Of a DNA stretch of 64,000 nucleotides, positions 32,192-36,074 are shown piece by piece. The notes beneath the pieces were generated by a model. That model ran no database searches and had not been told where the DNA came from. It worked only from the letters and a program-made list of their open reading frames with translations. Where the stretch lies: positions 124,001-188,000 of the forward strand of contig JAJDTB010000027.1 in the NCBI GenBank assembly GCA_022827345.1. The letters run 5' to 3'. The position numbers and the translations under genes were made by a program. Numbering within the stretch: position 1 is the first letter of the stretch; each line of letters opens with the position of its first letter. Origin of the DNA: Gemmatimonadota bacterium (GTDB lineage Bacteria > Gemmatimonadota > Gemmatimonadetes > Longimicrobiales > Gaopeijiaceae).

Positions 32192-33514
32192 CTATCCCCT
32201 TTCGGGCACCGGCACCCCGTACTGCGCCAGCGTCTGCGCCATCGTCGGCCGCCCCAGCCGCACCCGGCTGTCATCCAGCAGATACGAGAAGACGAATCCG
32301 GCCCCGAGCATCAGGATGCCGATGAGGAAGCAGTACATGACCGCGCGGTCGGGGTACGTGTCCTTCAGGTAGCCGACGTACATGGGACCGATGATCCCCG
32401 CCGCCGACCAGGCGGTGAGAATCGTCCCGTAGATCTTGGACATGTTCTTCGATCCGAATACGTCGAGGATGAACGACGGCATGGTCGCGAAGCCGCCGCC
32501 GAAGCACAGCAGCACGTAACAGACGAGGATCGAGAAGATCCACGGGTTCTCGTTGGTCATCAGAATGCCGAAGACCACCATCTGGCTCGCGAGCAGCACG
32601 CGAAATACCGACACGCGGCCCAATCGATCGGAAAGCAGGCCCCAGAAGAGCCTGCCGACGCCGTTGCACAGCGAACTCATCGCGATGAGGGTGGCTCCGT
32701 ACTCCGCAAGCGTCGCCGGATCGATCGATGGATCGGCGAGCCCCCACACCTCCTGCAGCAGCTCCGACTGGAAGCTGATCACCGAGATTCCGGCCGCGAT
32801 GTTGAAGAAGAACACGATCCACATGATCGCGAACTGCGACGTGCGCATGTACGGCGCCGCCGGCTCGACCTCCGCGGGCGCCGCCGCCTTCGCCGCGGCC
32901 GGCTGGCCGGGCGCTCCCGTTTCCGGCGGATCGCTCAGGACCAGGCTGCACGGGATGAGGATGCACGCGAACACGATCCCGAGCCACAGGAACACCACCT
33001 GAAGGTCGCCCTGGGCCTGGACGACCAGGAGCGGAGCCAGAACCTTGCTCAGCAGGAACGCGCCGACCCCGAAACCCATCACCACGATCCCCGTCACCAG
33101 CCCCTTGCGATCGGGGTACCACTTGGCGGCCGTGGTCACCGGAGTCACGTATCCCATCCCGATTCCCGCGCCCCCGATCACGCCGTAGCCGAGGTAGAAG
33201 AGCCACAGCGAGTCGATGGCCAGCGCCAGGCTGCCCAGCAGGTAGCCGGCGGAGAACATGACGCTGCCCAGCACGGCAAGGAACCTGGGCCCGACCCTGG
33301 GGAGCGCCTGTCCGGCCAGCGCCGCCGAAACCCCGAGGGTGAAGATCGTGATGCTGAAGGCGGCCGCCGTCTGGCTGAACGTCCAGCCCACGTCCCTGAC
33401 GAGCATCGTCTGAAAGAAGCTCCAGGCGTATACCGTCCCCAGACACACCTGCAACACGGTGCAGAAGAGCGCGATGACCGCCCTGGGCGCACTCCGCCGG
33501 ACGCGTGTCGCCAC
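32192..33514 (-). CDS. MFS transporter, oxalate/formate antiporter (OxlT-like) family
   Basis: A 440-residue, 12-helix major facilitator protein. Landmarks of the OFA/OxlT group: LGTVYAWSFF in helix 1, TLGVSAALAGQALPRVGPRF, GAGIGMGYVTPVTTAAKWYP followed by DRKGLVTGIVVMGFG, and GLLSDRLGRVSVFRVLL in the second half. Members exchange small carboxylates; the actual substrate is not known here. A central loop (about residues 205-225) is Ala/Pro/Glu-rich. The GTG at 33514 lies two bases after the stop of the membrane receptor gene, so the transporter is the last gene of that operon. It converges with the threonine ammonia-lyase gene. Confidence 0.87.
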   Translation of the reverse strand: MATRVRRSAPRAVIALFCTVLQVCLGTVYAWSFFQTMLVRDVGWTFSQTAAAFSITIFTLGVSAALAGQALPRVGPRFLAVLGSVMFSAGYLLGSLALAIDSLWLFYLGYGVIGGAGIGMGYVTPVTTAAKWYPDRKGLVTGIVVMGFGVGAFLLSKVLAPLLVVQAQGDLQVVFLWLGIVFACILIPCSLVLSDPPETGAPGQPAAAKAAAPAEVEPAAPYMRTSQFAIMWIVFFFNIAAGISVISFQSELLQEVWGLADPSIDPATLAEYGATLIAMSSLCNGVGRLFWGLLSDRLGRVSVFRVLLASQMVVFGILMTNENPWIFSILVCYVLLCFGGGFATMPSFILDVFGSKNMSKIYGTILTAWSAAGIIGPMYVGYLKDTYPDRAVMYCFLIGILMLGAGFVFSYLLDDSRVRLGRPTMAQTLAQYGVPVPERG

Positions 33515-33516
33515 CT

Positions 33517-34287
33517 CTAGCGTCCCTTCCCGGTTCGCACCCCGCCCTCTCGCGCGCGGCCGTCGGCGACGTGCTGCATCAGGCGTGCCATGTCGCCGAT
33601 TTCGTCGTCCCTGGTCAGCAGGTCGTCGTGAGGCACCTTGTCCTCATCGCGCTCGCGGGCAAGCCGGACGACGAACTCCAGCAGTGCGGCCAGCGGCCTC
33701 GACGCCAGGTTGACCAGCCAGATCGAGGCCAGCACACCCGTCACCAGAATGATGCAGAGCAGGTAGATCTGCTGGCCGACGGCGCGCTGGGTCTTCAGGC
33801 CCAGAAGCTCGAGGTCCATCCCTACGTGCACCGTGCCCGCAACGCCGGAAAGGATGGGGCTACCGACTTCGATGAAGTCCCCCAGCCCGGGCAGGCTCCG
33901 GTCGACCGGTTCCGTCGCGGTGTGGTCGCTCGCCAGAATCTCTTCCGGGATCCCCGGAATGAAGGTGTGAGCGAGGAATTCTCCGGTGTCGCTGGTGATG
34001 TAGATGTACCGGATGCTCTGAATCTGCACGAACTGGTCGATCAGGGACTGCAGCGTGGCCAGGTTCCGGTTGAGGAGGATGTCCACGCTGGAGTCGGCGA
34101 TGTTCTTCGCGATGCTCTCGCTGTTGATGATGTACTCGTCGCGCAGCTCGCGGGACACGCTGATGATCGACAGAATCGAGATCGAGAGCACCACGGCGGC
34201 GAAGAGCGCGAAGAACCCGAATCGCGTCTTCCGGAAGAGTTTCCTGACCAGCAGGGCCTCTTTCCCGTGTCGTCTGGAGCGCGTCAT
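33517..34287 (-). CDS. Membrane receptor with extracytoplasmic sensor domain and HAMP, no kinase
   Basis: A 256-residue two-helix protein. TM1 (about 25-47, FGFFALFAAVVLSISILSII), a periplasmic domain of about 120 residues with a CACHE/PAS-like pattern (SRELRDEYIINSESIAKNIA, IRYIYITSDTGEFLAHTF), TM2 (about 170-192), and a cytoplasmic HAMP-like segment (NLASRPLAALLEFVVRLARE). It then stops, 40-50 residues after the HAMP. A histidine kinase or methyl-accepting domain would normally follow, so either a partner supplies the output or the protein is shortened. The start overlaps the stop of the solute-binding protein gene (ATGA), and the stop lies two bases from the MFS gene. Confidence 0.75.
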   Translation of the reverse strand: MTRSRRHGKEALLVRKLFRKTRFGFFALFAAVVLSISILSIISVSRELRDEYIINSESIAKNIADSSVDILLNRNLATLQSLIDQFVQIQSIRYIYITSDTGEFLAHTFIPGIPEEILASDHTATEPVDRSLPGLGDFIEVGSPILSGVAGTVHVGMDLELLGLKTQRAVGQQIYLLCIILVTGVLASIWLVNLASRPLAALLEFVVRLARERDEDKVPHDDLLTRDDEIGDMARLMQHVADGRAREGGVRTGKGR

Positions 34288-35663
34288 GGCAGGCCGAACC
34301 TGGCTTCCCAGTCATCGAGCGGCACGAAGCGGTCGCCCTCCGGGACGGTGTAGTAGACTTGTTGCAGCCCCTGTCGGCGGTCGGGGCCGAAGCGAACCCG
34401 TTCGCCCACACCGAGGTCGTAGTTGCGCACGGCGAAGACCGCATCCTGGATCCCGGACCGCTGCGGGTTGTCGCCCATGCGGCGGATGATCTCGGTGATC
34501 AGCTTCGCGTTCACGAATCCCTCAAGGCTGACGAAGCTCTGCGCGAAGGGCTCGTACGGCTCGCCCTCCGCGATTCGGTCCACCTCTTCGGAGGACGGCA
34601 GTGGCGGATTGTAGCGCTCCATCAGTTCGTGGTACTCGCGCACGGCCGGCAGCGAGGTGTCCTCGTAGCTGGGCACGACTTGTGAATTGACCAGGAAGCG
34701 GGTGTGCGAGTCCGCGTCGGCGCGCCCCTCGCGCATGAGCGCCAGGAGGTTTTCGCTCCCCACGAAGGAGACGTTGGCGACCGGTATGTGCAGTCACAGG
34801 TCCTCGGCGTCGCGCGCGAAGGCGGCGCAGGCCTGGTAGGCGCCGATGCAGATCACGGCGTCCGGCGAGCGGGCCTGCAGGATCTCCACCTGGCCGCGCA
34901 TGCTGGCCCCGAACTGGGTGCCGCGCATGTAGGTCGCCTCGCCGGCGATGGTCTCGCCGTGCCGGGCCAGCGCCTCCCGTACCCCGGCCCAGCCGCTGCG
35001 CCCGTATGCGTCGTTCTGGTAGAAGACCGCGACGCGACGCCGCCCGAGCGCCACGAAGTTGTCGACCAGACCCGCCGTCTCCTGCCGGTACGAGGCCCGC
35101 AGGTTGAAGGCGAACTCGCCGTATGGGGGCTCCCGCTGAGGCTCCGCCCCGGTAAAGGGGAAGAAGAGGTAGACCTGCTGGTCGCGGAACTTCTTGAGTA
35201 CAGGAAGCGCCCGCGTGACCGTGGGCGTCCCCACGTAGTTGAAGAGCAGGAAGACGGTTTCGTCCTGGATGAGTTCGATCGTGTTGGCGACGCACGGATC
35301 CGGCTGGTATCCGTCATCGAGGAGCTTCATCACGATCCTGCGCCCGTTCACCCCGCCGTTCTCATTGACCTGGTTGAAGTAGGCCATTGCGCCACGGTAG
35401 AGCTCGGTGCCGAGTCCGCGCGAAGGGCCGGAGAACGCGGCGGACACGCCAAGGACGATCTCGTCGTCCTGCGGCAATCCGCGAGCCGCACGCTTCCGGT
35501 TGAAATACGCTCCGGCAGCCGGTGCCGAAGCCGCGCCCAGCGACTTCGCCCAGGGCAGGGCGAGAAGGGAAGCCAGCCCGGAGCGGACCCATGCCCGCCG
35601 CGTCAATTGCGCCACAGTGTCGTCGCGTGGCTCTTCGCTTGTGGAGCCCCGAGAGACTCTCAT
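34284..35663 (-). pseudogene. Branched-chain-amino-acid-type (Peripla_BP_6) solute-binding protein, interrupted by an in-frame TGA
   Basis: Two ORFs in the same frame add up to one periplasmic binding protein of about 459 codons. The N-terminal part (to 34794) has a twin-arginine-like signal (LTRRAWVRSGLASLLALPWA), IVLGVSAAFSGPSRGLGTEL, the ligand-binding GRRIVMKLLDDGYQP and VAVFYQNDAYGRSGW. The C-terminal part continues PVANVSFVGSENLLALM to the end at 34284. They are divided only by a TGA at 34794-34796, between AEDL and LHIPVANV; GGA (Gly) would fit there. There is no frameshift. The ATG at 35663 has an excellent GGAGGAAACCGAC. Either a recent nonsense mutation or a sequence error. It leads the receptor-MFS operon. 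Confidence 0.85.
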
Positions 35664-35879
35664 GTCGGTTTCCTCCGCTTCCCGCATTTCCTTCCATCAA
35701 TAGCGTCGGCAAAAAACCTAATCGGCAGCAATGTAGTCCCCGCCATTGCCGGGATCAACGCAATCCGGTACGGCTTTTGGCGGTCTCGGGCGGCAAAACG
35801 GGGCAACGGAGACGAATCTTCACCTCGGAGAACGCCACGGAGCTTTCATCGCCGGCCGCGTCCGTGGCTGCAACGCCGA

Positions 35880-36074
35880 TCAGGATTCCGGTTGACGTGC
35901 GAGCCAGCGTTCCACCCTGTCCATCAGGCTGGTGCCGCGGCGCAGGAACCTCCGCAGGTCGAAGAGGACCAGGATCAGGAGTACGAAGACGCCGAGTTGC
36001 ACGAGGGCCGTGATTCCAGCGAAGAAGCTGATCAGTGTGGTCAGCGAGCCGAATCCGAGGTCGGTCATGTCCAT
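35880..36074 (-). CDS. Small single-helix membrane protein
   Basis: A 64-residue protein. After a short polar start comes one long hydrophobic stretch (SLTTLISFFAGITALVQLGV then FVLLILVLFDL, about residues 10-40). The tail is basic and amphipathic (RRFLRRGTSLMDRVERWLAR). No family is recognised. It is called because the ATG at 36074 is preceded by GAGAGG at good spacing and the hydrophobic/basic pattern is protein-like. It lies between the quinone oxidoreductase and the solute-binding protein on the same strand. The 216 bases between it and the solute-binding start hold no gene I can see. Confidence 0.5.
   Translation of the reverse strand: MDMTDLGFGSLTTLISFFAGITALVQLGVFVLLILVLFDLRRFLRRGTSLMDRVERWLARQPES

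Follow-up and report, generated by a model that had tools for sequence, protein, structure and literature searches.

The nearest described system to the one analysed here is the DctB–DctS–DctA tripartite sensor unit of Bacillus subtilis, which, with DcuS–DctA of E. coli, joins an extracytoplasmic co-receptor, a sensor and a secondary carboxylate transporter as a unit (PMC6978683, in the accessible part of that article). We found a related arrangement in a 64,000-nucleotide stretch of Gemmatimonadota DNA (the window; contig JAJDTB010000027.1, positions 124,001 to 188,000), where a gene for a solute-binding protein (SBP) is followed by genes for a receptor that stops after its HAMP region and for a transporter of the major facilitator superfamily (MFS). 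DctS and DcuS come with kinase and response regulator, and DctA is their transporter, whereas the window trio is kinase-less and its transporter is an MFS protein. We take DctS and DcuS to be kin to sCache_3, and DctB to be a binding protein. Our favoured reading, to which we give a probability of roughly 45%, is that an SBP-coupled receptor has lost its output domain, functionally replaced by the neighbouring MFS transporter under the receptor's direct control.

Two further groups of systems invite comparison. In those of the TorT–TorS and LuxP–LuxQ kind, the SBP gene also lies directly ahead of a receptor with a periplasmic sensor domain and HAMP; the cassette differs in lacking an output domain in all 44 Gemmatimonadota genomes that hold it, and in having a transporter instead. 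A survey of SBP-activated receptors covers chemoreceptors, sensor kinases, diguanylate cyclases/phosphodiesterases and Ser/Thr kinases, and output-less receptors are not among the classes in its accessible part (PMC9602780). The tripartite ATP-independent periplasmic (TRAP) and tripartite tricarboxylate (TTT) transporters likewise combine an SBP with a small and a large membrane protein, but the cassette SBP belongs to Peripla_BP_6, its carrier is an MFS protein and its small protein is an sCache–HAMP receptor; Pfam analysis of the three proteins gave neither a DctP- or TctC-type SBP nor DctQM or TctAB subunits. The titles and opening lines of abstracts searched in the open-licence literature held no description of an SBP receptor that lacks a kinase and stands with an MFS transporter, a weak negative.

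The three genes occupy 35687..32192 on the minus strand and encode a Peripla_BP_6 SBP, a receptor of 256 amino acids and an MFS carrier of 440 amino acids. The SBP and receptor genes overlap by ATGA and a gap of 2 bp separates the receptor and MFS genes; the coordinates confirm both junctions as given in an earlier, model-made reading of the sequence (the original prediction), which overlooked an in-frame TGA in the SBP gene. The features, with transmembrane helices abbreviated TM, are as follows.

34284..35687, minus strand: SBP of the signalling type, Peripla_BP_6 (E 1.5e-32); Tat-like signal, judged by eye; an alternative ATG start at 35663 is possible
34794..34796, minus strand: in-frame TGA inside the SBP gene, codon 298 counted from 35687
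33517..34287, minus strand: output-less receptor with sCache_3_2 (E 1.2e-7), two TM helices, HAMP, then stop
34156..34212, minus strand: receptor TM1, residues 26–44, from hydropathy
33808..34146, minus strand: receptor periplasmic sCache domain with leading helix, residues 48–160, the best-conserved region
33712..33768, minus strand: receptor TM2, residues 174–192, from hydropathy
33565..33711, minus strand: receptor HAMP region, residues 193–241, with P198 and DExG (D228, E229, G231)
32192..33514, minus strand: SfMCT-type (L-lactate) MFS transporter (MFS_1 E 9e-39)
32699..32767, minus strand: MFS periplasmic TM7–TM8 loop, residues 250–272, a near-invariant insertion of the receptor-linked clade
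32216..32266, minus strand: MFS cytoplasmic C-terminal tail, residues 417–433, its pattern present in 32 of 51 rows
35880..36074, minus strand: small one-helix open reading frame upstream of the SBP, 64 residues, one hydrophobic stretch by eye

A query with the single receptor sequence returned a close homologue (at least 60% identity) in 28 of 98 relatives, and a kinase-linked match of 26% identity in one more; a profile search found the receptor in 44 of 395 Gemmatimonadota genomes. The predicted order of SBP, receptor and MFS, on one strand, recurs in every one of these 44 (the SBP gene is cut by the end of a stretch or contig in G005 and G519, the MFS gene likewise in G010), and because it is identical throughout, the order is beyond chance. 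Orthologues of the MFS transporter (at least 60% identity) follow the receptor exactly among 59 genomes, being present in 23 of 23 with the receptor and in none of the 36 others, three of which hold MFS proteins of 28–36% identity. The genes flanking the cassette vary by lineage.

Looking for the same order elsewhere, as the original prediction had advised, yielded not only these 44 genomes but also a Candidatus Binatia locus (L054), whose genome is the only one of 198 searched in its phylum with a close receptor match, and in which a GST-type gene stands right after the MFS gene. L054 falls among the Gemmatimonadota rows in the SBP tree (support 96/91) and pairs with L222 in the MFS tree (86/87); the receptor tree does not resolve its placement. 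From its positions in the SBP and MFS trees, these phylogenies suggest that the cassette moved between phyla. The Gemmatimonadota-type cassette also occurs in four records titled Gammaproteobacteria (L043, L044, L046 and L049), metagenome-assembled genomes whose names look wrong.

In the receptor, an sCache_3_2 domain is combined with a pair of hydrophobic helices and an end of the HAMP type. As originally predicted it is kinase-less: in all 44 Gemmatimonadota genomes with the receptor, and in the Binatia cassette described above, the protein stops directly past HAMP. All 23 rows compared keep the HAMP signature (P198 and D228-E229-x-G231) without change. Among 22 receptor orthologues, mean column identity is 0.91 in sCache and 0.70 and 0.79 in the HAMP helices but drops to 0.42 across the connector and 0.34 across the C-terminal tail, with little kept past residue 241; from these regional values we conclude that HAMP is retained and that the receptor ends there by design. 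The ratio of nonsynonymous to synonymous change (dN/dS) between the window and its nearest relative, L030, is 0.0124/0.195, or 0.063. In an AlphaFold model (mean pLDDT 70, pTM 0.48), a TM1 helix and a mixed strand–helix core are followed by a TM2 that continues into a long helix (159–212), and by a second helix at 229–247. The top Foldseek rows for this model were a WalK–YycH model, a chemoreceptor (methyl-accepting chemotaxis protein, MCP) model and the CitA sensor, the best CitA row having E 1e-4; a single-sequence comparison of the receptor with the PDB gave nothing useful.

Profile alignment with CitA (E 0.05) sets the arginine of the R-x-x-H motif against F104 and two more basic positions against E140 and G142; the motif's histidine is retained as H107. 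In Geobacillus CitA, changing R93 loosens citrate binding (PMC11754779, in the part accessible). On our reading of the R93/H96 spacing, R93 is the aligned arginine of this motif, and its absence here, in what is a weak alignment, would fit sensing of an SBP and not of free ligand.

Is the short receptor then a truncated kinase, as the original prediction allowed? That suspicion has a basis in distant relatives (26–37% identity), which lie behind the same kind of SBP and continue into kinases, but it fails for the family itself: all close relatives also stop after HAMP, so the short form has been conserved as such and does not represent a truncated kinase. In the receptor tree, midpoint-rooted and with several long branches outside, 13 output-less receptors form a single clade (97/97) with kinase and MCP forms outside it. 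Fusion of receptor and MFS was also considered, since the search frame overran the receptor in L008, L035 and L215–L217. Read directly, L008 and L215–L217 each have a stop just past HAMP and the MFS gene in a different frame; L035, by its numbers the same sequence as L008, has the stop within the aligned end. Because of these stops after HAMP, fusion was rejected.

The original prediction had asked whether homologous receptors carry kinase or diguanylate cyclase domains, and both kinases and GGDEF–EAL forms were found, as well as MCPs. In L055 (Desulfovibrionales), an SBP of 46% identity overlaps a receptor of 1189 amino acids with sCache, HAMP, PAS, HisKA, HATPase, two receiver domains and Hpt. 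Eight Desulfobacterota-side loci were fetched, of which L145–L148 have the SBP. L146 has the same pairing with a hybrid kinase (by Pfam), as does L145 (by length and similarity), and L147 has the SBP and a receptor kinase, then a sigma-54 activator. L148 (4951-6450) has the receptor start in one frame and PAS–GGDEF–EAL in another, probably a frameshift of assembly origin. L149 gave no useful gene calls, and the weaker receptor matches of L150–L152 lie behind a different SBP (Phosphonate-bd in L150; L151 and L152 by eye). On a plasmid of Deinococcus aetherius (L085), the SBP and an MCP receptor sit within a chemotaxis cluster.

We sampled plasmid homologues of the SBP as eight annotated records from the top rows, one per genus, of 97 matching records. 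Five of these best eight have a receptor directly downstream, an MCP in Deinococcus, Terrarubrum, Phaeobacter and Ruegeria and a hybrid kinase in Burkholderia; the three without an adjacent receptor have nothing (Comamonas), an HDOD protein (Eleftheria) or an OFA MFS (Bradyrhizobium). A ninth record, from Halomonas, carries no annotation and is outside this count. At the Bradyrhizobium locus (L231 4141-7873), the SBP homologue is 33% identical and the OFA MFS, encoded on its strand, follows after 600 bp in which no receptor was recognised, either by chance or as a reduced version. Judged by gene arrangement, an SBP–receptor pair of this family makes up a signalling unit whose output can be exchanged. 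The earlier proposal that the SBP serves the receptor is supported to the extent that the same pairing precedes kinase, MCP and GGDEF–EAL outputs.

The MFS transporter had been called OxlT-like, and here the prediction needs correcting to SfMCT-like. With 336.9 bits, the window protein passes the equivalog cut-off of the NCBIfam SfMCT model (NF049980, 320 bits), as do the members in L054 (321.6) and L221 (327.3), whereas that in L222 scores below it (309). It fails both oxalate/formate models, scoring 190.3 against 374.85 bits for TIGR00890 and 173.2 against 335 for TIGR04259. OxlT, the oxalate:formate antiporter (PDB 8hpj), belongs to the same wider MFS family (E 2e-24), but its lysine 355, presumably involved in oxalate binding, aligns with Trp in the window protein.

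SfMCT is an L-lactate/proton MFS carrier (PDB 6g9x), with the roles of its clamp and proton-site residues taken from the accessible part of PMC6573034. Its carboxylate clamp is kept in the window protein (Y119 as Y122, N276 as N284, R280 as R288), as are the positions of F335, K377 and D378. Elsewhere the window protein differs, with Q249 in place of H250, Phe in place of Y331, Leu of F359, Trp of C362 and Arg of Y383, and D257 is not conserved; of the proton site H250/D257/D378/Y383, D378 (as D385) is the only residue kept. From the kept clamp and the changed positions, the substrate is likely a monocarboxylate, and proton coupling appears uncertain. A gene of the isocitrate/isopropylmalate dehydrogenase type (Iso_dh) stands about 10 bp behind the MFS gene in L042 (8074-9087) and L046 (8099-9112), a hint at the MFS substrate; among NCBIfam models the L046 gene comes nearest to PRK08997 (isocitrate dehydrogenase), with 469 of 510 bits, below cut-off.

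Receptor-linked MFS proteins form one clade (support 100/100), and the window gene has a dN/dS of 0.0077/0.148, or 0.052, against L030. The TM7–TM8 stretch of the window protein is 9 residues longer than in SfMCT. Its motif, FQSELLQExWG, occurs in 50 of 51 receptor-linked rows and in none of nine receptor-free relatives, among which Aureimonas and L083 carry an insertion of their own there. The spacing from the loop Gln to the TM8 Asn is a constant 35 in receptor-linked rows, against 26 in SfMCT; the 51st row has neither the motif nor the 35 spacing. We regard this loop as a candidate docking site.

Where the window SBP gene has its TGA, each of the 53 other SBP sequences compared has glycine. 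For the mature protein, dN/dS between the window and L030 is 0.0040/0.153 (about 0.03) upstream of the stop and 0.0079/0.142 (about 0.06) downstream, so selection is purifying on both sides. Since the glycine is invariant elsewhere and selection persists past it, the stop is a recent mutation or an assembly error; the values on either side rule out an old pseudogene. For a structure model of the L030 orthologue, the closest structures are 4kv7 and 3lop, both titled without ligand, and lower matches include Peripla_BP_6 structures holding amino acids, aromatic acids, amides or urea. With no ligand in the titles of the top matches and varied ligands below, structure does not fix the ligand.

The window's genome holds two more SBPs of this kind. 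SBP2 (L153 7280-8446, C13), a 74% identical copy nested within the clade of the cassette SBP (97/98), lies between two TonB-dependent receptors with carboxypeptidase-like domains, and by eye the SBP2-type copies of G011, G012 and G033 also have large genes of this sort beside them; SBP2 may share its ligand with the cassette. SBP3 (41% identity; L154 5582-10166, C29) lies between a receiver–SpoIIE protein and a 745-residue HAMP kinase, an arrangement also seen in G001, G012, G021, G022 and G030, of which G021 is without the cassette receptor and MFS. The SBP3 locus is a separate SBP–kinase system. Small STAS-like and anti-sigma-like genes around it (by eye) give it the look of an SBP-fed partner-switching system.

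A split signalling system, in which the receptor works with an unlinked kinase, had been raised as a possibility and was not supported. The sole match to the receptor in its own genome at E ≤ 1 is the receptor itself, and no orphan HAMP kinase was obvious among the genome's 18 HATPase_c matches, judged by size, helices and neighbours, with a Pfam domain scan for the SBP3-linked kinase only. Several of the 18 are non-kinases by eye (gyrase- and MutL-type). No kinase was recognised among the cassette's neighbours in the window and in 10 loci. The co-operonic MFS protein is a likelier partner than an unlinked kinase, because it is found exactly in the receptor genomes.

What the genomes hold directly are three genes in fixed order, a receptor end after HAMP, SBP–receptor pairing elsewhere and a distinct, co-occurring MFS clade. 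We suggest that the receptor acts on the MFS protein because it has no kinase to drive, its output is gone and this particular transporter is always present. The ligand captured by the periplasmic SBP would be small and is probably an amino acid or a carboxylate; as the gene pairing suggests, the loaded SBP would dock on the two-helix receptor at its sCache domain. The signal would run via TM2 and HAMP, and the receptor may then contact the SfMCT-like protein directly, opening or closing monocarboxylate transport. That all three proteins form one membrane complex, in which either HAMP gates the MFS protein directly or the SBP feeds it directly, giving receptor-gated, SBP-dependent transport, we consider somewhat unlikely; our searches brought up no example of such MFS transport.

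Several observations weigh against the favoured reading. The link between receptor and MFS is genomic, and the conserved neighbourhood could reflect co-regulation only. The Pfam HAMP model (PF00672) matches weakly, with E > 0.1 for the window receptor and E ≤ 1 in 4 of 11 members, and the receptor profile aligns weakly with CitA (E 0.05). The TM7–TM8 loop could serve transport alone, and the MFS C-terminal pattern is present in just 32 of the 51 rows, with incomplete rows probably behind some of the misses. Finally, the window's own SBP gene contains a stop codon.

The best-surviving alternative, though an unlikely one, is a new type of SBP-dependent secondary transporter, tripartite like TRAP and TTT, in which the SBP passes its ligand to the MFS protein and the receptor is a docking scaffold only. 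An SBP, a small membrane protein without any output domain and a carrier of the 12-helix type do share an operon, the carrier has a clade-specific periplasmic loop, and the flanks of the window and of 10 loci, read by eye, contain no recognisable ATP-binding cassette (ABC) permease or ATPase beside the trio, as the original prediction had noted. But a scaffold has no need of the conserved HAMP signature residues, and the relatives of the SBP serve signalling receptors. We know of no SBP partner for SfMCT, whose substrate clamp the MFS protein keeps. In the accessible part of its description, SfMCT works alone (PMC6573034).

Rather less probable is that the receptor, with the SBP and with the MFS protein as co-sensor, pairs in trans with an unlinked histidine kinase or other signalling enzyme. 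HAMP usually feeds a signalling domain, transporter–sensor units are known in DcuS–DctA and DctB–DctS–DctA (PMC6978683, accessible part), and the genome has PAS-type kinases without TM helices (by eye). Yet the TM-less kinases L203, L205 and L206 each adjoin a frame of response-regulator size (by eye), and the own-genome and neighbourhood searches described above, which gave no second receptor-like sequence and no neighbouring kinase, argue against such a partner.

The trio might instead be co-regulated but physically independent: the SBP and receptor would sense together, with an output that is vestigial or unknown, and the MFS protein would simply move a related compound; we hold this slightly less probable again. 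The evidence is one of neighbourhood alone, and SBP2 stands beside TonB-dependent transporters without receptor or MFS; against independence, all three genes are under purifying selection, and the trio stays together amid different flanking genes and seems to have crossed phyla together. Decay, in which a kinase was truncated to give the receptor and the SBP gene became a pseudogene, has the in-frame TGA of the window and the kinases of distant homologues in its favour, but is very improbable and for the family largely refuted by the identical receptor end in 44 of 44 genomes, the glycine that all 53 other sequences have where the stop lies and the low SBP dN/dS before and after it.

Around the cassette, the window flanks carry threonine ammonia-lyase and 2-oxoglutarate dehydrogenase E1 genes (by eye). 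The small frame at 35880..36074 has relatives in 5 of 22 loci searched (L030, L032, L040, L050 and L051) and no match in Pfam or NCBIfam; that it is part of the system is doubtful.

If the favoured reading is true, a transporter can serve as the output of a HAMP receptor without any phosphorelay, and SBP-controlled secondary transport would extend past TRAP and TTT to the MFS. With kinase, MCP, GGDEF–EAL and no-output forms behind like SBPs, the family is a compact natural test of HAMP with nothing attached.

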